Shown piece after piece: positions 15,112 to 26,607 of a stretch of 56,110 nt of DNA. Made by a program: the position numbers and the translations under genes. Numbering within the stretch: position 1 is the stretch's first letter; every line of letters begins with the position of its first letter. Location of the stretch: the NCBI GenBank assembly GCA_017520155.1, contig JAFXGR010000060.1:1-56110 (forward strand), given 5' to 3'. Source of the stretch: Lachnospiraceae bacterium (GTDB lineage Bacteria; Bacillota; Clostridia; Lachnospirales; Lachnospiraceae). The notes beneath the pieces were generated by a model, which was not told the origin of the DNA, did no database searches, and was given only the letters and a program-made list of their open reading frames with translations.

Positions 15112-16899
15112 ATGGAATTAAAAGCAAGAAAAGATATGGATCCCAAATACCAATGGGACGTTTCTCATATTTTTCCTTCCATGAAGGAATGGCAGGCTTC
15201 CTTTGAGGAAGTGGAAGCTTCCATTGCTGTTTTGGAAAGCTTTGCCGGTACACTGCATACTTCTGCAGCTCACTTAAAAGAGGTGTTAGATACTATCTTT
15301 AAGGTGGAAGAAAAATTTAATAAGGTTTATATTTATGCCATGTTAAACAAGGCCGCAGACGGCGGTGATAAGGATGCCCAGACTATGATGGCCAAGGTAT
15401 CTTCCCTGATGACAAAATTAGGAACTGCTGTCTCCTATTTAATTCCGGAATTTCTTTCCATGGAGGAAGAAAAGGTACAGGAATTTATGGCCACCGGTCT
15501 TTTAGAGGAATATGCTCACTACATCGATGATATTTCCAGAAAGAGACCTTATACACTGGATGCCCAGGGGGAAAAAATGCTGGCTATGTTATCTGATGCT
15601 GCCTCCGCTGCGGAAAATACCTTCGATGCCTTTACGGATGTGGATATGGAATTTCCCAAGGTGCATAATGAAAAAGGAGAATTAGTACAGCTTACCAGCG
15701 GAAATTTTGGCGTATTTCGTGAAAGTCCCAGCCGTCAGGTACGTGAGGAAGCATTCCTTGCTCACTTTGGTCAATACAAAAAATATGTAAATACCATAGC
15801 GGAAATGTATGCCGGCTCCGTTAAATTTGACTGCTATTTCTCCTCTGTGAGAGGCTATGACAGTGCTGCCCATGCAGCTTTATTTGTGGATAATGCTCCT
15901 CTTAGTGTATATCACTCATTAGTGGAAGCTGTCCATAACTCACTTCCTTCCATGAAAAAATATTTAACCCTGCGAAAAAAGGTAATGGGACTGGATAAGA
16001 TTGACTTATTTGATCTTTACACTCCCATGGTGGCTGAGGTAGATTATCCTATGCCCTATGAAGCTGCTAAGGAATTGGTAAAAAAGGCGCTTCTTCCTTT
16101 AGGTGAACGTTATCAGGAGTTATTAGATAAGGCCTACAGCGAAAATTGGATTGACGTATATGAAAATAAAGGAAAACAATCCGGTGCTTTTTCCTGCGGT
16201 GTACACGGCGTTCATCCCTTTATTAAGTTAAATTATACAGAAACTTTAGATTATGCCTTTACTTTGGCTCATGAATTAGGTCATGCAATGCATTCCTATT
16301 TTTCTTCCGAAAAACAGACCTTTGCAAACCATCATTATAAAATTATGGTGGCAGAAGTGGCATCCACCTGTAATGAGGTACTTCTTACCAAATATTTGTT
16401 GCAAGAAGAAAAAGATTCTATGCGCAGAGCCTATATTTTAAATCATTTCCTGGAAGGCTTCCGTACTACCGTATTCCGTCAGACCTTATTTGCAGAATTT
16501 GAATACCAGGTTCATGAAATGTATGAAAAAGGACTTCCCTTAACACCGGATTCCTTATCCGATACTTATAAAAAGTTGTTGGAGTTATATTATGAGGGTG
16601 CAGAAATTCCGGAAATTATGAAATATGAATGGTCTTATATTCCTCATTTTTATAATGCTTTCTATGTATACAAATATGCCACCGGCTTCTCCAGTGCCGT
16701 TGCCATTGCCAATAAGATCTTAGAAACCGGAGATGCTTCCGATTATCTGAAATTCCTCTCTCTTGGAGGCAGTGATTATCCTGTAGAAGAGTTAAAAACT
16801 GCAGGCGTGGATTTATGTAATCCCCAAACAGTAAGTGATGCGCTTAAGGTTTTTACAGAAACCATTGATGAATTAGGAGCTTTATTAACAGAAAAATAA
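15112..16899 (+). CDS. pepF: Oligoendopeptidase F (M3B metallopeptidase)
   Basis: 595 residues, the normal PepF length. The zinc motif HELGHAMHS (around residue 387) has the two His, and the third ligand Glu lies in EVASTCNEVL some 25 residues later. It is a cytoplasmic endopeptidase that cuts peptides of roughly 7-17 residues. AAAGG precedes the ATG. A second M3 peptidase gene lies convergently downstream, and the oligopeptide importer follows further on, so imported peptides are the likely substrates. Confidence 0.95.
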   Translation: MELKARKDMDPKYQWDVSHIFPSMKEWQASFEEVEASIAVLESFAGTLHTSAAHLKEVLDTIFKVEEKFNKVYIYAMLNKAADGGDKDAQTMMAKVSSLMTKLGTAVSYLIPEFLSMEEEKVQEFMATGLLEEYAHYIDDISRKRPYTLDAQGEKMLAMLSDAASAAENTFDAFTDVDMEFPKVHNEKGELVQLTSGNFGVFRESPSRQVREEAFLAHFGQYKKYVNTIAEMYAGSVKFDCYFSSVRGYDSAAHAALFVDNAPLSVYHSLVEAVHNSLPSMKKYLTLRKKVMGLDKIDLFDLYTPMVAEVDYPMPYEAAKELVKKALLPLGERYQELLDKAYSENWIDVYENKGKQSGAFSCGVHGVHPFIKLNYTETLDYAFTLAHELGHAMHSYFSSEKQTFANHHYKIMVAEVASTCNEVLLTKYLLQEEKDSMRRAYILNHFLEGFRTTVFRQTLFAEFEYQVHEMYEKGLPLTPDSLSDTYKKLLELYYEGAEIPEIMKYEWSYIPHFYNAFYVYKYATGFSSAVAIANKILETGDASDYLKFLSLGGSDYPVEELKTAGVDLCNPQTVSDALKVFTETIDELGALLTEK

Positions 16900-16969: not shown

Positions 16970-18772
16970 CTATAAAGCCAAAAAGCTGTCCACGGTTTTA
17001 GCAATCTGCTCCATTCCACCGCACCAGAAGACCTTGTCTGTAAGATCAATTCCCACCATTTTTCCTGCATCTTCTGCAGAACAGGTTACGGTCGCCTTTA
17101 ATAACGCTTTATATTTTTCCACAAACGCTTCCCCTTCTTTTTCAAAGATGTTGTAAAGTCCTAAGGCAAAAAGATTACCGAAGGCGTAAGGGAAGTTATA
17201 GAAGCTTAACCCTTCACTGTAATAATGAGGCTTGCAAATCCACATTCCGGGATTTAAATATTCGGGATCCAGACCATCCCCATAAGCTTCTTTCTGGGCA
17301 TTTACCATTAATTCATTTAAATCCTCTGCCATAAGGAATTTACTCTGACTTTGTTCAAACACTGCAGTTTCAAAAAGATATCTGGAATAGATATCAAGAA
17401 TTACCTGTGTATGCTCCTTCAGATCATTTTCCAAAAGATTCAGTCTCTCTTCTCCTTCTGCTTTACTTAATGCATATTTTCCAAGATGCACTTCATTGAA
17501 GGTAGAAGCTGTTTCCGCTACCGGCATAGGATAGTCCTGATTTAAAATACGTTCATTTTCAATCTGCTTATTATGGTAAGCGTGCCCCAGCTCATGAGCC
17601 AATGTTCCCACTGCATTAAAGGAGCCGTCAAAGTTGGTTAAGATACGGCTTTGCTTTAAGAAAGAAACACCGGAGCAAAAAGCACCTCCTCTTTTTCCTT
17701 TTCTTGGATAAAAATCAATCCATTCCTGTTCAAAAGCATCCTTAATCATGCCGGATAAATCACCGGAGAAGGAACCAAAGCAGGTTACCAGATAATCCTT
17801 TGCCTCCTCCACCGTAAATGTACGGTCTGTTTTTCCCATGGGAGCAAATAACTCGTACCAGGGAAGTCCGTTGGTATAGCCCATCATCTCTGCTTTTTTG
17901 CGAAGATATTTTCTTAATACAGGGGCATATTCCCTAATAGCTTCCATCATGGCATCCAAGGTTTTTCTTTCCATTCTTGACTGATTTAAGGTCATCTCAA
18001 GAACTGATTCATACCCTCTCTTTTTACAAAGCATAGTTACCTGATTTTTAATATTATTAATGGAAAAGGCTACCGAATCCTGAATTTTTTTATAGGAAGC
18101 AAGCTCTGCTTCATAAGCTTTTTTACGCACTTCTGCCTCTTGGCTATAGGCAAGATTTCTTACCTCGGATAAGGTAATTTCCTTTTCTTCATAGTCCACC
18201 TTTACGGTAGAGGTAAGAAAGCTTTGCAGCTGACTCCACTGAGATCCTGCCACCATATTCATGGCAGAGGCCATTTCTTCTGCCTCCTCAGAAAGCAAAT
18301 GCTTTGCTTCCTCTTTATTTTCTTTTACTAAAAATTCATAGGCCTTAATCAGGCTGCTTTCTTTGGTCAAATTTTCTATATTGTCAATTTCCGCCATCAT
18401 TTTTTTCATTGCAGAGTACATGGGAGAAAAACGGGCGTATAATTTCTGCAGTCTGGCTGACTGAGCCATTAAGTCTCCGTTCTCTGTATCTACAGACTGG
18501 GATAAATCCACATACTGCATCAGCTTATAGAACAGAGTATATACCTTTTCCCATTGGTAAAGGATGGCTTCTGCCTTTTCTCTTTCCTCCACAATTCCTC
18601 CGTGACAGCTTTTTTTCGCTTCACAGGAGCAGGGGGTAAGTTTATTTTCCTTAAGCTGTTCTAAAATACATTGAGTTTCTTCTATGGCCCCTTCCAGTAA
18701 TTTTATATCCTGCTCATAGGCCGGATCAGTAAGTCCCTGGTAAATAGGACTTAAATTCCATTCTGTTTTCAT
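16970..18772 (-). CDS. M3-family oligoendopeptidase
   Basis: 600 residues. The zinc motif HELGHAYHN lies near residue 397, with the downstream Glu ligand in VAETASTFNEVHL. It is clearly divergent from the neighbouring PepF, with a different N-terminal helical region and a Cys-rich stretch (TPCSCEAKKSC) near residue 45. AAGGAG precedes the ATG. It is probably a cytoplasmic peptidase acting on peptides taken up by the opp system encoded just upstream on the same strand. Confidence 0.93.
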   Translation of the reverse strand: MKTEWNLSPIYQGLTDPAYEQDIKLLEGAIEETQCILEQLKENKLTPCSCEAKKSCHGGIVEEREKAEAILYQWEKVYTLFYKLMQYVDLSQSVDTENGDLMAQSARLQKLYARFSPMYSAMKKMMAEIDNIENLTKESSLIKAYEFLVKENKEEAKHLLSEEAEEMASAMNMVAGSQWSQLQSFLTSTVKVDYEEKEITLSEVRNLAYSQEAEVRKKAYEAELASYKKIQDSVAFSINNIKNQVTMLCKKRGYESVLEMTLNQSRMERKTLDAMMEAIREYAPVLRKYLRKKAEMMGYTNGLPWYELFAPMGKTDRTFTVEEAKDYLVTCFGSFSGDLSGMIKDAFEQEWIDFYPRKGKRGGAFCSGVSFLKQSRILTNFDGSFNAVGTLAHELGHAYHNKQIENERILNQDYPMPVAETASTFNEVHLGKYALSKAEGEERLNLLENDLKEHTQVILDIYSRYLFETAVFEQSQSKFLMAEDLNELMVNAQKEAYGDGLDPEYLNPGMWICKPHYYSEGLSFYNFPYAFGNLFALGLYNIFEKEGEAFVEKYKALLKATVTCSAEDAGKMVGIDLTDKVFWCGGMEQIAKTVDSFLAL

Positions 18773-19124: not shown

Positions 19125-20639
19125 TTATATTCTTTTATGGTGACAAGCTACAAAATGGTTTGGACGAACCTCTTCCCATTCAGGAACAACCTGACGACAG
19201 ATTTCTGTACAATAAGCACAACGGGTATGGAACTTACATCCTTTTGGAGGGTTCACCGGACTGGGAATATCTCCCTCTAAAATCTGAAGTTCTTTACGGC
19301 TTTCATCTTCCGTAGTAGGAATAGCATTTAACAGAGCTTCTGTATAAGGATGAATGGGATTAGCAAAAATATCCTGAGAATCTGCTAATTCCACCATATT
19401 TCCTAAGTACATAACACCAATTCTGTCAGAAATATATTTTACAACGGATAAGTCGTGTGTAATAAACAAATAGGTAAGGTTTGCTTCTTCCTTTAAATCC
19501 TGGAGAAGATTAATAATCTGTGCCTGAATAGATACGTCCAAAGCAGAAACTGCTTCGTCACATACTACGAATTTAGGCTGTGTTGCCAACGCTCTGGCAA
19601 TACCGATACGCTGTCTCTGTCCTCCGGAGAACTGGTGAGGGAAACGATGAAGGAAATAAGGTGCCAAACCACACTGGTCCATAATTTTTAACACACGCTC
19701 CTGCATTCTTTCATCCTTACGTTTGATCATGTTGTGAGCCTGCATACCTTCACTGATAATCTGTCCCACACTCATACGAGGATTCAAGGAAGAATAGGGA
19801 TCCTGGAAGATTAACTGTAAATCCCGACGAAGCTTACGCATTTCGTTATAATTTAAACGTGCCAAGTCAATTCCTTCGTCACGATATTCTTCGTACTTTA
19901 AGAATTCAGGATTATTTTTATAGGGAGCACGCATCTGTTCTATTTCACTGCGAAGATTTTCCAGCTCTTTTTTGGCCTTTTCAATCTGTGCACTAACGTC
20001 ATCTACGTTCATTCTGCAGCTGTCTACCTTACTTTGGCTTCCTTTTCCCTTATCCAAGGCAAATTCCGCATCTGCAAGATCCACATTGGCATCCTGTAAG
20101 GAATCATGAAGTCCGGCAATTTTACGGGAAAGATCATATACTTTTCCATAGATATTCTGAACAGGTGTTAGGTCTTCCACAGTAATAAAGCCGCCCACAA
20201 TCTTTGTCATGTTGAGCATAGCATCCTCTGCCAGCTTTCTGGCTGTATCCAGCTCTTCATGCTTAGCAAACTGCTGCTCCTCGGTAAGCTTGCTGTATTC
20301 ATTTTCCAGCTTTTCTTTTTTGCTTTCCAGCTCTTTCCAGTTCTTTCTCAGCTTAGGAAGATTTTTTATAGTGGTCTGGAAATACTTAGGTGCCAGCTCT
20401 TCCAAAGAACGACCATAATACATGGTACGTCCGTAGGTTTGATGATACAGCTGAAGAATGGTACGTCCCAGGGTTGACTTACCACAGCCTGATTCTCCTA
20501 CCAGACCAAAGGTCTCCCCTTTATAAATATCAATGGACACCCCATCATTTGCCTTAACAACACGTCCCTTTTTTATAGGGAAATATTGCTTCAAATTACT
20601 TATACTTAATAAAACTTCTTTATTATTCTTATTTACCAC
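19125..20639 (-). CDS. oppF: Oligopeptide ABC transporter ATPase OppF with a large internal insertion
   Basis: 504 residues from the GTG at 20639, chosen because AAGGAGG lies 8 nt upstream and the start overlaps the end of oppD by 11 nt. Walker A GESGCGKST (48-56), Q-loop IFQDPYSSLNPRM (near 277-289), signature SGGQRQRIGIARAL, Walker B VVCDEAVSALD and the C-terminal oligopeptide/dipeptide zinc-binding-like CKFHTRCAYCTEIC are all present. Between Walker A and the Q-loop there are about 220 residues instead of about 50. The extra 170 or so (85-255) are highly charged and heptad-like (KELESKKEKLENEYSKL, KKELENLRSEIEQM), predicting an antiparallel coiled coil. The ATPase core looks intact. Confidence 0.93.
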   Translation of the reverse strand: MVNKNNKEVLLSISNLKQYFPIKKGRVVKANDGVSIDIYKGETFGLVGESGCGKSTLGRTILQLYHQTYGRTMYYGRSLEELAPKYFQTTIKNLPKLRKNWKELESKKEKLENEYSKLTEEQQFAKHEELDTARKLAEDAMLNMTKIVGGFITVEDLTPVQNIYGKVYDLSRKIAGLHDSLQDANVDLADAEFALDKGKGSQSKVDSCRMNVDDVSAQIEKAKKELENLRSEIEQMRAPYKNNPEFLKYEEYRDEGIDLARLNYNEMRKLRRDLQLIFQDPYSSLNPRMSVGQIISEGMQAHNMIKRKDERMQERVLKIMDQCGLAPYFLHRFPHQFSGGQRQRIGIARALATQPKFVVCDEAVSALDVSIQAQIINLLQDLKEEANLTYLFITHDLSVVKYISDRIGVMYLGNMVELADSQDIFANPIHPYTEALLNAIPTTEDESRKELQILEGDIPSPVNPPKGCKFHTRCAYCTEICRQVVPEWEEVRPNHFVACHHKRI

Positions 20640-21621
20640 TGTTGCGATCCTCCTTCTTAGGATAGAAGCAGCGCACCTGCTGTGTATCACTAACACGGGT
20701 CAGCTGCGGCTCCTCTTTGCGGCAGCGTTCCGTAGCATATTTACAACGTGGTGCAAACTTACAGCCTACAGGCAGATCCAAAGGATGAGGAACTGCACCG
20801 GGAATTGCCTCCAAACGAACTCCCGCCGGTGTATCCAAACGGGGAATAGAAAGCATTAATCCTTCTGTATACGGATGGGAATATTCGCTTACATGGAATA
20901 TGGTGTGGGCAGGAGCAAGTTCTACTACCTGACCGCAATACATAACTGCCACATCATCTGCCATCTGGTTAATTACTCCCAGGTCATGTGTAATGAAAAG
21001 AACAGCCGTACCGTTTTGTTCCTTTAATTCGTTCATCAGCTTCAATATCTGAGCCTGAATTGTTACGTCCAAAGCTGTTGTGGGTTCATCCGCGATTAAC
21101 AGCTTAGGCTTACAAGCCAATGCCATAGCAATCATAACACGCTGACGCATACCACCGGAAAGCTGGTGAGGATATTGATTGGCAACAACAGAGGGGTTGG
21201 CAATCTTTACATCAGCCAACAGTTCAACGGCCTTTTTAGCCGCTTCTTTCTTATTCATTCCCTGATGAATCATCAAAGGCTCAGACAGCTGCTTACTAAT
21301 GGTAAATACAGGATTTAAGCTTGTCATCGGTTCTTGAAAAATAACGGAAATTGCATTTCCACGAATCTGATATAATTCATTTCTTGTAAGCTTTGTTAAA
21401 TCCTTTCCTTCAAATAAAATTTCACCACTGTCAATATAACCATTATTATCCAACAGCTGCAATACGCTCATGGCAGAAACACTTTTTCCGGATCCGGATT
21501 CTCCTACAACACCTAAAACCTTTCCGGCATCCAAGGAGTAACTAACATCGTTTACGGCTTTCACAACTCCCTTTTTGGTATTGAAGAAGGTTTTTAAATG
21601 ATTTAATTCCAATAATGCCAT
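20629..21621 (-). CDS. oppD: Oligopeptide ABC transporter ATPase OppD
   Basis: 330 residues, normal length. Walker A GESGSGKS, Q-loop IFQEPMTSLNP, signature LSGGMRQRVMIAMAL, Walker B LLIADEPTTALD and H-loop ITHDL are all complete. The C-terminal oligopeptide domain has CKFAPRCKYATERC. Unlike its partner OppF it has no insertion. AAGGAGG precedes the ATG. It sits between oppC and oppF in the operon. Confidence 0.96.
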   Translation of the reverse strand: MALLELNHLKTFFNTKKGVVKAVNDVSYSLDAGKVLGVVGESGSGKSVSAMSVLQLLDNNGYIDSGEILFEGKDLTKLTRNELYQIRGNAISVIFQEPMTSLNPVFTISKQLSEPLMIHQGMNKKEAAKKAVELLADVKIANPSVVANQYPHQLSGGMRQRVMIAMALACKPKLLIADEPTTALDVTIQAQILKLMNELKEQNGTAVLFITHDLGVINQMADDVAVMYCGQVVELAPAHTIFHVSEYSHPYTEGLMLSIPRLDTPAGVRLEAIPGAVPHPLDLPVGCKFAPRCKYATERCRKEEPQLTRVSDTQQVRCFYPKKEDRNSGK

Positions 21622-21632
21622 AATAACCCTCC

Positions 21633-23435
21633 TTAACGTTCCATAGATTTGGGATCGAAAGCACTTCTTAGTGCATCTCCCACAAGGTTAATACAAACCG
21701 TACAGATACCAAAAACTGTGGCAGGAAATACCCATCTCCACCAAAACTGCTGAATAACTACTGAGTTATTTGCACTGGTCAGCATATTTCCCCAGGTTGG
21801 TGTAGGGGCAGAAATTCCAAATCCTAAATAAGACAATGTGGATTCTGTTAACATACAAGTAGCAAAATCTAAGGTGGCAGTTACTAAAATCATGGAAAGT
21901 ACATTGGGAAGAATATGACGGAATACAATGGCGCCTTCCTTTACTCCCATAGCCTTGGCAGCAATTACGAATTCCTGCTCTCTCTGACTAAGGATCTGTG
22001 CACGAATCAATCGACATGTTCCCGGCCAGGAAAGTACTCCAAGTACGATCATAATTAAATACATACGCTGTTCCACAGAAATTCTGGTTCCGATAATGGC
22101 TGATAAAATCATGGCAAAAGGAAGGAAAGGCAATCCTCCTACAACTTCAGCAACACGCATAATCAACATATCGATCCATCCACCAAAATAACCGGCAACA
22201 CCACCTAAAATAATTCCGATAATTAGGGAAATAATAACGGCAATGGCACCTACTGTCATGGTAACACGACCACCGTTGGCAATTCGATTAAGTAAATCTC
22301 TTCCTAAATCATCAGTTCCGAAAAGATATCCTCTTAATCCCCAGGTTTCCACTTCGCCTTCATCTGTTAATGCATAATTCTGATAGAAGCCTGAGAAAAT
22401 ATTCTCAATATTTTTACTGTGAACGGAAGCAGGAACATCACATACATCATGTGTTTCGCTTCCCCAGGTAATCACATCACCGTTTTCCAATAATGCAGTA
22501 TAGTGGTTTAATCCACCATAAATTTTTACCGGTTTGCTGTCCATAGCAGGAACTTCATTTTCACCGTTTATCATATTTCCCCAAACGGTAATGTTACCTT
22601 CTGCATCTACTGCCGCTACAGTAGACCCTGTTGATGAAATATCCACAATGCCTGATGCCGCACTTTCCGGAACATCACTAAAGGCATTCTTCTGAAGTCC
22701 TCCGTAAACTACGCTTCCATCTTTCAACAAAGCAATATAGCTGTAAGTAGTCAGTGCTACTTTTTCAATCTGACCTTCATATTCTCTGCGTAAATTTAAA
22801 TCTGCCATATTGCTGTTTCCCCACAGATACAGCTGTCCATCTTCTGTCACTGCAGCACTGAATTGATATCCTGCTTCAATCTGCTTAATTTTCAGATTTT
22901 CATTTTTACGCATGGCCCCTTTTATCTCCTGAGGAAGACGAGCCTGTCCCAGACGTTCATTTCCCCAAACATAAACCCCGCCATTTTCATCCAAGGCTAC
23001 AATATGGTCATAACCGGTAGCCACTTTTACTATTTTTGCCTGCTGAACTTCCTCGGGAATATCTGCCAAGTTGATAGTATCAGTAATTCTTGTATATCCC
23101 CAGGTATAAACCTTACCGGTATCCGATACACCTACGGCAAAGGTAGTTCCGGGAGCAATATCTGCTACATGCCCTTTTAATTCCTTAGGAATCTCCATTA
23201 ATTTCATGGTTGGGGGCACGTTTGCCTGTGTATTATCCTGAAAACTTAAATCTAATACAATAAAACGAGGTGCAATCATCACAAATGCAAAAATAAGGAT
23301 GAATACAATCAAACCTGTCATTCCCAGGGGATTGTGGAGAAAATTACGAAGCACCAGTCGTCCGGGGCTTTGTACCTGTTCCTCCTCCATAAAATTCTGT
23401 TCCTTGTTTCTGTTGCCAAAAAGGCGGGAAAGCAA
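21633..23435 (-). CDS. oppC: Oligopeptide ABC permease OppC with a seven-repeat RCC1-like propeller in loop 1
   Basis: 600 residues. The first membrane helix is at about 40-57. Residues about 76-369 hold seven repeats with the RCC1 pattern (YTWG, YVWG, YLWG, VYGG, TVWG, ITWG, ETWG, each preceded by a G-x-x-x-x-x-A-L type strand). The normal OppC sequence then resumes at LFGTDDLGRDLLNRI, with five more helices and the permease EAA-like region (AAKAMGVKEGAIVFRHILPN). Topology puts the propeller outside the cell, next to the OppA docking site. The start is uncertain. The frame begins at a TTG (23435), or at an ATG at 23390 after AAGGA. A perfect AAGGAGGG-ATG at 23464 lies one base out of frame. 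Confidence 0.93.
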   Translation of the reverse strand: MLSRLFGNRNKEQNFMEEEQVQSPGRLVLRNFLHNPLGMTGLIVFILIFAFVMIAPRFIVLDLSFQDNTQANVPPTMKLMEIPKELKGHVADIAPGTTFAVGVSDTGKVYTWGYTRITDTINLADIPEEVQQAKIVKVATGYDHIVALDENGGVYVWGNERLGQARLPQEIKGAMRKNENLKIKQIEAGYQFSAAVTEDGQLYLWGNSNMADLNLRREYEGQIEKVALTTYSYIALLKDGSVVYGGLQKNAFSDVPESAASGIVDISSTGSTVAAVDAEGNITVWGNMINGENEVPAMDSKPVKIYGGLNHYTALLENGDVITWGSETHDVCDVPASVHSKNIENIFSGFYQNYALTDEGEVETWGLRGYLFGTDDLGRDLLNRIANGGRVTMTVGAIAVIISLIIGIILGGVAGYFGGWIDMLIMRVAEVVGGLPFLPFAMILSAIIGTRISVEQRMYLIMIVLGVLSWPGTCRLIRAQILSQREQEFVIAAKAMGVKEGAIVFRHILPNVLSMILVTATLDFATCMLTESTLSYLGFGISAPTPTWGNMLTSANNSVVIQQFWWRWVFPATVFGICTVCINLVGDALRSAFDPKSMER

Positions 23436-23476: not shown

Positions 23477-24496
23477 TTACTTATCTACACGAACTCTGGG
23501 GTCTACCAGTCCGTAGCTTAAGTCCATAATTAACTGACCAATCAAACTTACGGCACAATAGAACATCTGTGTTGCCAGTGCCAGTTCATAATCACTATTT
23601 CTTAATGCCAGGTAATATACCTGTCCCATACCATTTAAGGTAAAGGTGGTTTCTATGATAACAGAACCACTGAAGATAGTAATAAACCATCCGATAATAA
23701 CAGTAACTACAGGCAGTAACGCATTTCTCCACGCATGAGAATAAATTACCACTTTTTCCCGAAGACCCTTTGCACGGGCTGTACGAATATAATCCATTCC
23801 CAAAGCATCAATCATGGCGGTACGAACGTAACGTGTCATTCCTCCTAAGGAAGCAAAGGTCATAATTAATACCGGCAAGGTAAGATAATAAATTCTGTCT
23901 AAAAATGCCTGCATACCCTGGTAATTGGATCCCGGAGTCTCCATACCACTAACCGGAAGCCAACGAAGCTTTACCGCAAAAAGCCAGATAAACACCAGCG
24001 CAATAATATATATAGGAATACTGTAACCAATAATGGTCATAAACTGGACGGCATTATCAAATTTACCGTTTTTGCGCACCGCACAAAAGATTCCCAGGGG
24101 AATGGTAATGGCTAGAGCCAAAAAGGTAACAAACAGATTGATAATCATGGTATTCTTCATTCTGATGGGCAATACTTCCGTTACATCCTTTTTGAAGAAG
24201 TTGGAATATCCAAAATATCCCTGAAGCATTCCGTGAAGCTCACCGGATTCCTTCTCCGGTGCAAACCCCATCCATCTGGCATAACGCAGAAGAATAGGGT
24301 CATCAAGTCCCATTTGTTCTCTCAGATTCTGATATCTTTGTTCGTATTCTGCCGGTCTCAGTGTTGTCTTAATTCCTTCCAGCTCTGCTCTCGCAGGGTC
24401 ACTGGGAATGAGATTGTATAATAAATACATCAAGACAGAGACAATGAGAAACACAAAAATCATATAAATAATTCGTTTCACGATGTATTTCTTCAT
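23477..24496 (-). CDS. oppB: Oligopeptide ABC permease OppB
   Basis: 339 residues with six membrane helices. The start MKKYIVKRIIYMIFVFLIVS and the permease loop TARAKGLREKVVIYSHAWRNALLPVVT are typical of OppB/DppB. The segment between helices 1 and 2 is of the usual size, so only OppC is enlarged. GGAGG is 9 nt before the ATG. It is the first gene after the hairpins that follow oppA. Confidence 0.95.
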   Translation of the reverse strand: MKKYIVKRIIYMIFVFLIVSVLMYLLYNLIPSDPARAELEGIKTTLRPAEYEQRYQNLREQMGLDDPILLRYARWMGFAPEKESGELHGMLQGYFGYSNFFKKDVTEVLPIRMKNTMIINLFVTFLALAITIPLGIFCAVRKNGKFDNAVQFMTIIGYSIPIYIIALVFIWLFAVKLRWLPVSGMETPGSNYQGMQAFLDRIYYLTLPVLIMTFASLGGMTRYVRTAMIDALGMDYIRTARAKGLREKVVIYSHAWRNALLPVVTVIIGWFITIFSGSVIIETTFTLNGMGQVYYLALRNSDYELALATQMFYCAVSLIGQLIMDLSYGLVDPRVRVDK

Positions 24497-24636: not shown

Positions 24637-26607
24637 TTATTCAGCATTTGCGATGGTAGCGTAAAGAACTGCGTCTTCGAACTCCCAATAGCTACTCTGA
24701 TCATATCCTTCCAACCAATCTGCATGAACTGTGTAGTAAATGTTAGAATACAGCGGAACGTCAGGAAGAAGTTCATTCCAACGATCCATAAACTGCTGCC
24801 ACATATCCAAATAAGTTGCATCATCACCTGCTTCTACACCATATACCATGTCCCAAGCAAGGGTAGCAAGCTTTTCATCTTTAATAAAGTTGTTATTGTA
24901 AGTACCCATGTACTCATCTTTCATGCTCATTTCATAAGCCTGGCTGTACAGCTGTGTAAATCCTGTAGCAAGGTTGAACATACCGTAAGTAGGAACTCCG
25001 TATTTTGCATCTACAGAAGCATCACGATACATATAGTTCAAAAGATCTGTAAAGGACATAACTGTCTGCTCAATTACCATACCGGCATCAGCAGTCTGCT
25101 GTCCGTTAGCAAGCATAACAACTAAAAGTTCAGATACAGGGTTGTCTTCAGAAGAAGACCACATAATGTGAAGAGGCATTAAGATACGTCCATCAGGAAG
25201 TGTTACATTTAATGCATATGTTCCTGCTTCTTCAGCAGTAACTTCTTTATAACGTGTTCCTGTTCCGGAGTACTCGCTTCCGTCTGCGTTTAATACCCAT
25301 CCGTCTGCTTCTAATAATTCAATAGCTTTTGCAGGGTCATAGGAGTAAGAATCAATATTGTCTGCAAAGAATTCCTGAGAATCCTGATACATCCACATGC
25401 AAAGGCCATAAGGTCCGTCTACTACAGAACCGTATCCTGCACAGAACTGATTTGCAAACTCATTACGATCTAATAAATAAGCTACTGCCTGACGAACAGC
25501 GGGGAACTGAGTAGGACCGAAGTCACAAGCAAACTGAAGTTTGCCGTATCCGTTACGTTCAAAGTCTACATAAGTAAATCCGCCTGCATCTACTAAGTCA
25601 AGGGCAGGGTTAATTTCAAGATTTCCATCTGTTAATGTATCAAGAAGGTCTACTGCTCCTGTCTTTAAAGAGTCAATTGCTGTAGCAGATTCTGTTTTTA
25701 CAATAACTAAAGTTTCGATAGTAGGTTTCTGTCCTTCGAAGTTACCTGCATAGTTAGGGTTGATTACAAGTTCAGCCTGAAGTGTTCCTGTATCTACCTT
25801 CTTGATCTGGTAAGGTCCTGCAGAAACACGTCCTTCATAAATGAAACGGCTTGCATTGATATCATCTGCATTTAACTCACCACCGTCAAGGTATACACCT
25901 TCTCCGTCATCTTTTACTGTTAATGTAGCATTAGGAGCGTACATAGGAAGATATAAAGGAGAAAGATCTGCGTAGCTTAACTCATAGAAGTAAGGAAGAT
26001 ATTCAGGTACGATTGTAATTGCATAGGTATAATCATCTAAAAGACGAAGACCGCTGATTACATTAGATTCACCACTCTGATATTCAGCACTTCCTACTAC
26101 ACTGTCAGCTACAACTCCTGCTGCTGCCTCTAAAGTAGCAGGTGAGTAAGCAACTAATGCATAAGCAACATAGTCAGCTGCTGTAATCGGTTCACCGTTG
26201 TTATAAGTTAAACCTTCTTTAATCTTAACGGTAAAAGTTTTGGATCCATCTTCATTTTCAGTAGATTCAATGTCACCATCTACAACTGTAGAGTTAACTA
26301 ACATTGCACCTTGCTGATCAAAAGTAATAACATTATAGTCATTAATTAAATCACGGATTTTTTTGTCGCTGGCATTGTTTGTCCACCATGCATTTCCTAA
26401 GTCACCACTGATTTCTGTAGTAGAACCATAAATCAGACGGTTAGGACGGCTAGCTGCTTCTTCTGCTGCAGCTTCTTCTGTTGCAGCTTCAGTACTGTCT
26501 GCTGCAGTAGTACTGCTCTCCGGTGCATTCTGTGCTGTTCCGCCACAGGCAACCAAAGATACGGCCATTGCTGCTACAAGCAACATAGACACTAATTTCT
26601 TTTTCAT
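24637..26607 (-). CDS. oppA: Oligopeptide-binding lipoprotein OppA
   Basis: 656 residues, larger than the usual 540. Lipobox LVACGGT gives a lipidated Cys21. A short Ala/Glu/Thr-rich tether follows (SSTTAADSTEAATEEAAAEE). The family 5 solute-binding fold is seen in VKIKEGLTYNNGEPITAADYVAY-like and YLLDRNEFANQFCAGYG-like segments. It captures peptides outside the cell for the OppBCDF pore. The extra length may relate to the unusual extracellular domain in OppC. GGAGG lies 6 nt before the ATG. Confidence 0.94.
   Translation of the reverse strand: MKKKLVSMLLVAAMAVSLVACGGTAQNAPESSTTAADSTEAATEEAAAEEAASRPNRLIYGSTTEISGDLGNAWWTNNASDKKIRDLINDYNVITFDQQGAMLVNSTVVDGDIESTENEDGSKTFTVKIKEGLTYNNGEPITAADYVAYALVAYSPATLEAAAGVVADSVVGSAEYQSGESNVISGLRLLDDYTYAITIVPEYLPYFYELSYADLSPLYLPMYAPNATLTVKDDGEGVYLDGGELNADDINASRFIYEGRVSAGPYQIKKVDTGTLQAELVINPNYAGNFEGQKPTIETLVIVKTESATAIDSLKTGAVDLLDTLTDGNLEINPALDLVDAGGFTYVDFERNGYGKLQFACDFGPTQFPAVRQAVAYLLDRNEFANQFCAGYGSVVDGPYGLCMWMYQDSQEFFADNIDSYSYDPAKAIELLEADGWVLNADGSEYSGTGTRYKEVTAEEAGTYALNVTLPDGRILMPLHIMWSSSEDNPVSELLVVMLANGQQTADAGMVIEQTVMSFTDLLNYMYRDASVDAKYGVPTYGMFNLATGFTQLYSQAYEMSMKDEYMGTYNNNFIKDEKLATLAWDMVYGVEAGDDATYLDMWQQFMDRWNELLPDVPLYSNIYYTVHADWLEGYDQSSYWEFEDAVLYATIANAE

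Follow-up and report, generated by a model that had tools for sequence, protein, structure and literature searches.

RCC1 repeats inside the permease subunit OppC of a clade of bacterial oligopeptide importers, with a paired insert in the ATPase OppF

Introduction

OppABCDF is the textbook importer of food and signal peptides. In another ABC importer, that for maltose, the permease subunit MalF carries an extra folded periplasmic domain (P2), which lies between TM3 and TM4 and beside the dock of the binding protein. The E. coli relative of the peptide importer, DppBCDF, provides a topological reference: according to PMC12136057, DppC has six transmembrane segments (TMs), exposes its TM1-TM2 region to the periplasm and pairs with the ATPase DppF, and the binding protein DppA caps DppB and DppC. 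Propellers of the RCC1/BLIP-II type are, for their part, mostly bacterial in the data set of a study of propeller amplification (PMC9218822), and in the text of that study the word 'transporter' does not occur. Among the open-access journal papers listed by our literature search, which addressed RCC1 as well as the Opp system and importer structure, none describes RCC1 repeats within the permease of an ABC transporter. Importer and domain are each known; as far as searched, their combination – and the paired OppF insert that we report below – is undescribed.

Here we analyse an opp operon from a Lachnospiraceae bacterium (assembly GCA_017520155.1, contig JAFXGR010000060.1, positions 1 to 56,110 of the forward strand). 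The whole stretch of DNA analysed, 56,110 nt in length, is referred to as the window, and coordinates are given on it.

Results

The operon and its surroundings

The operon lies entirely on the reverse strand. It opens with oppA (24637..26607), encoding a 656-aa substrate-binding protein of family 5 (Pfam) with a signal peptide and an LVAC lipobox recognised by eye, followed by oppB (23477..24496), the second permease subunit (open reading frame, Pfam and NCBIfam), and by oppC (21633..23435), the permease subunit with RCC1 repeats in its TM1-TM2 loop (600 aa, counted from a TTG at 23435). The two ATPase genes come last: oppD (20629..21621, 330 aa) and oppF (19125..20696, 523 aa), the latter with a long insert. 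OppC is thus accompanied by all of its operon partners, OppA, OppB, OppD and OppF, as identified by Pfam and NCBIfam, and the A-B-C-D-F order is retained wherever the contig of an RCC1 locus allows the operon to be read. OppD and OppF each have four C-terminal cysteines spaced as in an Fe-S site, a judgement made by eye against the DppD and DppF residue numbers in PMC12136057. The genome of the window is fragmented (189 contigs, 81% complete); in it no other OppC was matched by the query at E<=0.001.

Two variations in gene content were seen elsewhere. Three RCC1 loci (L153, L155 and L157) have two oppA-like genes upstream of a single oppBCDF, the nearer copy in L155 being split over two frames, and in certain non-RCC1 operons (L162-L167, L169-L171) the OppD open frames run to about 382-407 aa, against the usual 330 or so.

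Immediately 3' of oppF is a gene for an M3 oligoendopeptidase (16970-18772, reverse strand; Pfam Peptidase_M3) with no export signal discernible by eye, and beyond it a second frame that resembles such a gene by similarity (15112-16899) runs in the opposite, forward, orientation. An M3-type gene also directly follows oppF on the same strand in L031 and L032 and, by position, comes just after oppF in L197. Peptidase_M3 was confirmed by Pfam in all seven flank genes tested (five from RCC1 loci, two from controls) as well as in the window. We considered whether the peptidase might be a partner special to the fusion and rejected the idea: M3-type oligopeptidase genes occur in the fetched flanks of 14 of the 45 RCC1 loci, yet also in those of 3 of the 19 controls. 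Their presence near the operon fits a nutritional peptide importer and is not special to the fusion.

An OppC interrupted by an RCC1 unit

Pfam finds both domains by which an OppC is recognised, each over its cut-off: OppC_N at residues 23-75 (2.8e-9) and BPD_transp_1 at residues 407-596 (7.7e-31). Between them lies a strong match to RCC1_2 (PF13540; 2.4e-33, 113.5 bits against a cut-off of 22), joined by RCC1 itself (PF00415; 9.7e-8, 32.9 bits against 21.7) and by a WD40_RLD/RCC1-like domain model that stays under its cut-off (2.4e-37, 129.6 bits against 150). A search of PDB sequences draws the same boundaries, since E. coli OppC (8z21) matches residues 369-597 and, weakly (0.08), residues 10-59, and UVR8, RCC1, HERC2 and BLIP-II match within residues 70-367. 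The assignment to the RCC1 family made in the preliminary description is thereby borne out. The permease core, with its GTDxxGRD segment, was aligned to chain 8z21_B. The best-scoring NCBIfam model is the Opp4C equivalog, at 300 bits; because this falls under the cut-off of 350 we file the protein as Opp4C-like only.

Hydropathy and the order of the Pfam domains agree with the location first proposed for the repeats, between the first membrane helix and the GTDxxGRD segment. TM1 (residues 42-60; 23256..23312, reverse strand), which falls within OppC_N, is the sole hydrophobic segment before residue 395; none occurs in residues 77-366, and the next begins at 395. The inserted region comprises residues 72-366 (22338..23222, reverse strand), including an N-terminal stretch with an invariant proline, P83, and is followed by the permease domain (residues 370-600; 21636..22328, reverse strand; Pfam BPD_transp_1 and PDB sequences). 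Short linkers flank the insert: TM1 is followed by about 12-17 linker residues, and six residues separate the final WG from GTDxxGRD. Compared with the Opp4C-like OppC and DppC proteins exemplified by E. coli 8z21 and 8z1v, the window's protein shares TM1, the GTDxxGRD segment, the BPD_transp_1 core and the OppABDF partners, but differs in the RCC1 unit of about 290 residues housed in its TM1-TM2 loop.

The true start of oppC is uncertain. Close relatives begin at an ATG 10-11 codons upstream of the TTG, which is the earliest standard start codon in the window's frame, and the corresponding ATG in the window (23464-23462) is out of frame with the open reading frame, apparently by a one-base difference. 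The offset, between 23435 and 23464, is either an assembly error or a real change.

Seven repeats, probably one ring

A repeat HMM – seeded from the window, retrained on relatives of the same family and applied at a lax threshold – resolves seven repeats between residues 89 and 366, with scores of 32-58 bits, the number that had been counted by inspection. All on the reverse strand, they occupy residues 89-128 (23052..23171), 134-169 (22929..23036), 182-215 (22791..22892), 222-257 (22665..22772; here YGG replaces WGN), 263-297 (22545..22649), 303-336 (22428..22529) and 342-366 (22338..22412), the terminal WG of the seventh standing six residues before GTDxxGRD. Seven RCC1 units at these coordinates is a result far beyond chance. 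In sequence and number the repeats resemble those of the RCC1, UVR8, HERC2 and BLIP-II propellers; unlike them, the window's copy sits inside a membrane permease, and its best BLIP-II match spans residues 236-367 only.

P83 is invariant (weighted conservation 1.00) and resembles the tail proline of five other repeats (conservation 0.88-1.00), so that the two ends could join in a single ring, a requirement for an insert whose ends are adjacent. The residues ahead of repeat 1, P83 included, probably supply the strand needed to finish the seventh blade and so close the ring; we infer from the repeat pattern that the seven units would form a single seven-bladed propeller.

The count is stable among relatives. 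In 44 inserts (L201 excluded) seven repeats were detected in 40, six in L040, L041 and L155, and eleven in L161; the threshold was lax, and in L151, L152, L153 and L156 there are single repeats with scores of no more than 0-2 bits. The last of the exceptions to the count (L161:6447-9128, also L008) is an amplified variant with a propeller region of 555 aa, in which about 13 repeats can be made out by eye.

Searching the whole genome of the window for further RCC1 proteins gave no match with PF00415 at E<=0.001, because single repeats are weak. PF13540 found five repeats in oppC, three of them over the cut-off, and one sub-threshold match elsewhere; oppC thus seems to encode the sole RCC1 protein in this genome as assembled (81% complete). 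In a different genome, G245, a lipoprotein-like frame with RCC1-like repeats (L235:1-1185, reverse strand) is perhaps a free-standing secreted relative.

Distribution and ancestry of the fusion

The fusion is not confined to the window. It occurs in 8 of 145 relatives (window included), in 11 of 80 loci kept from a contig scan, in 17 of 391 genomes of the class (window included) and in 14 of 398 genomes of the phylum, the last count including the window and one genome already among the 17. Together these searches yield 45 non-overlapping loci (the window, L031-L041, L141-L161 and L190-L201), all complete in oppC save L201, which is cut by a contig end inside the gene. Identity to the window's protein ranges from 89% down to 37% among the first 16 relatives aligned. 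The 11 named contigs of the contig scan are metagenome-assembled genomes titled Lachnospiraceae, Oscillospiraceae, Christensenella sp., Mageeibacillus sp., Clostridiales or Clostridia, and seven of these titles refer to an animal or to its gut. In the genus of the window the distribution is patchy, with the fusion in three of seven genomes that are themselves 72-89% complete.

An assembly chimera or misread frame was a refutation envisaged when the fusion was first proposed, and the fragmentation of the window's genome and the one-base offset at its start-codon region give some reason to entertain it. The homologues dispose of it: the fusion stands in a single open frame at 45 loci (truncated by the contig end in L201), among them genomes assembled as one contig (L149, 3.13 Mb; L153, 1.81 Mb). 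We regard an artefact as ruled out for practical purposes, its probability being negligible, and the fusion as real and widespread.

In a carefully built tree of 100 permease domains from OppC (96 distinct), all 45 RCC1 rows group in one clade with support of 100/99. Outside it fall the 55 non-RCC1 rows (51 distinct), which include the best-scoring propeller-less OppCs fetched and none of which has a propeller; the few long branches flagged are all among these non-RCC1 rows. Quick trees of OppB (43 RCC1 rows, 19 others) and OppD (43 RCC1 rows, 18 others) agree with the OppC clade. Among the 100 rows compared no propeller-less row, and so no loss, was found inside the clade. Most simply read, the propeller was gained once and the whole operon then passed on, by descent or by transfer, as a unit.

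The TM1-TM2 loop has received an insert in at least one other lineage. A second group of OppCs (L013-L020, L024, L025, L030, L043, L044, L130, L131, L135-L140), lying outside the RCC1 clade and with a normal OppF gap where scored, also has a large insert in this loop, of 151-291 aa (21 inserts, 170 of 210 pairs mutually similar). No Pfam domain was found in the four scanned (L014, L137, L140 and L130), and the best match of a propeller profile to the 21-sequence set has an E-value of 0.0065; the idea that these inserts are decayed propellers is unsupported.

A second insert, in OppF

The preliminary description overlooked a further departure from the norm, in OppF. The window's protein shares Walker A, the Q-loop and the oligo_HPY C-terminus with the OppF and DppF ATPases of E. 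coli (8z21_D, 8z1v_D). However, where 42-48 residues separate Walker A from the Q-loop in all 17 of the 19 controls that could be scored (L205 and L209 gave no score), the distance is 188-239 residues in each of the 41 RCC1 operons, out of 45, that were scorable. The contigs of L039 and L192 lack OppF, and in L191 and L201 no Walker A is recognisable. The additional sequence, roughly 145-197 residues, begins after a conserved YYGR-like motif, and a conserved GIDLxxL...EMR motif marks its end. Residues E, K, L and A abound in it, and it is coiled-coil-like, its heptad periodicity exceeding the 95th percentile of shuffled sequences in 30 of 41 cases. Comparison with Pfam and the PDB gave only generic coiled-coil-type matches (best PDB E-value 0.0025), and a known domain was accordingly rejected as its identity.

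A profile built from the Walker A to Q-loop stretch of the window (19821..20450, reverse strand), which holds the insert, matched 18 of the 391 class genomes strongly (E<1e-30) and four weakly (4e-4 to 8e-4). The strong matches comprise all 17 class genomes with the fusion plus G245, in which no RCC1-OppC was found. G245 is uninformative as a reverse exception, because its contig has 3742 bases and ends inside OppD, in a genome 78% complete. Since all 45 operons form one clade, the pairing of the two inserts counts as one joint gain with retention and not as independent events.

Rates and constraints

Identities were compared across eight parts in 35 operons, nine of the 45 being dropped for a missing part and L161 in addition. 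Mean pairwise identity falls from the OppF core (0.722) through OppD (0.720), the permease domain (0.603), OppB (0.514), the TM1 region (0.427), OppA (0.395) and the propeller (0.384) to the OppF insert (0.302), the most variable of all. The propeller has therefore evolved at about the pace of the binding protein. It is nonetheless under purifying selection: dN/dS (omega) is 0.038-0.176 in the nine of 14 pairs for which it was computable (the other five being saturated for the propeller), and in all nine it exceeds that of the permease; several of the underlying dS values lie above 1 and are rough.

Within residues 60-372, 43 positions are conserved at 0.80 or above, of which 31 are W, G or P; among the others are strand residues, H144, Y354, N72 and two columns of Gln. 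As the conserved positions are mainly those that we read as fold residues, the fold appears to be kept while most of the surface varies, and no docking-like patch could be distinguished from fold residues over this range. A crude loop-by-loop comparison of the propeller, with one cell undefined, showed no clear face. In a mirror-tree comparison the propeller and OppA have the highest raw distance correlation (r 0.877), but after correction the partial r of 0.443 for OppA stands beside 0.439 for OppB and 0.442 for the OppF ATPase core. Net charge is negative for the propeller in 42 of 44 cases and for OppA in 40 of 40.

Discussion

The locus, in our reading, represents a distinct OppABCDF subtype. 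Homology with E. coli DppBCDF, as documented in PMC12136057, puts the inserted unit outside the cell, next to the place where the binding protein caps the permease, and on the half of the pump formed by OppC and OppF; the extracellular location initially suggested on grounds of topology agrees with this. On the outer face of that half a seven-bladed propeller would stand next to the landing site of the binding protein, where it may serve as a fixed platform above the entrance that holds or orients OppA, itself lipid-anchored, or else the peptide of OppA. Such a platform would work like the P2 domain of MalF. Both are extra extracytoplasmic domains of a permease subunit, but fold, loop and importer family differ, and we claim no homology. 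Inside the cell, the OppF insert would form a coiled-coil-like arm that belongs to this half as well and might lend it stability or bind a partner in the cytosol.

That the propeller is an outer docking platform, most likely for OppA, is the reading that we favour, though tentatively and at somewhat less than an even chance. For it speak the position of the unit, its short linkers, a rate of evolution like that of OppA, an operon shared with OppA and OppB, and the lack of a second OppC match in the window's 81%-complete genome. Against it stand the disappearance of any special correlation between propeller and OppA upon correction and the lack of an evident conserved patch; moreover, with both partners acidic, a simple charge-driven contact is not favoured.

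The propeller could also recognise a target other than OppA – part of the cell wall, say, or an enzyme outside the cell that acts on peptides or on the wall – and so place the importer where peptides are released. We consider this rather unlikely, but it has a precedent in BLIP-II, a bacterial relative that is a secreted protein binder (PMC9218822) and whose chains match part of the window's propeller, and a variable surface over a conserved fold is what one sees here. Comparison of the flanking genes with the proteins of the window's operon, however, brought up no candidate extracellular partner, and the M3 peptidase, with its occurrence near controls and the lack of a visible export signal in the window's copy, does not fill the role. 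Less probable again is that the propeller shields the importer from phages, bacteriocins or proteases, or is a tolerated insertion with no task of its own. The unrelated insert in the same loop of another Opp clade indicates that the site tolerates additions, and in every computable pair the propeller has changed at a higher rate than the permease; neutrality, on the other hand, sits poorly with a near-constant seven repeats, with an omega well below 1 and with the failure to find a propeller-less row inside the clade.

The pairing with OppF invites a bolder proposal, namely that the outer propeller and the inner coiled-coil arm together make the pump a transceptor, as a signalling or regulatory module that reports on or gates peptide import. 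Both additions fall on the same half of the pump by homology, they co-occur with no clear exception, and the arm has its heptad pattern; but a single common origin accounts for the co-occurrence, and the arm is the least conserved of the parts compared. We hold this to be improbable. In its strongest form it would make the system a new class of importer, in which a built-in extracellular sensor or receptor (the propeller) is mechanically linked to the OppF arm and the pump acts as a transmembrane signalling or gating device, a prospect that we likewise rate as a long shot.

Whichever task the propeller has, a whole clade of OppABCDF importers, sampled here at 45 loci, appears to have rebuilt one half of the machine by adding an RCC1 propeller to its outer side and a coiled-coil-like arm to its inner side, and family models built on the permease only would miss both additions. 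Propeller and arm together suggest an undescribed mode of cargo docking or control. Should the propeller dock OppA or capture peptides, it would represent a novel means by which Gram-positive cells feed an ABC importer; should it be a sensor, importers of this clade would become receptors.
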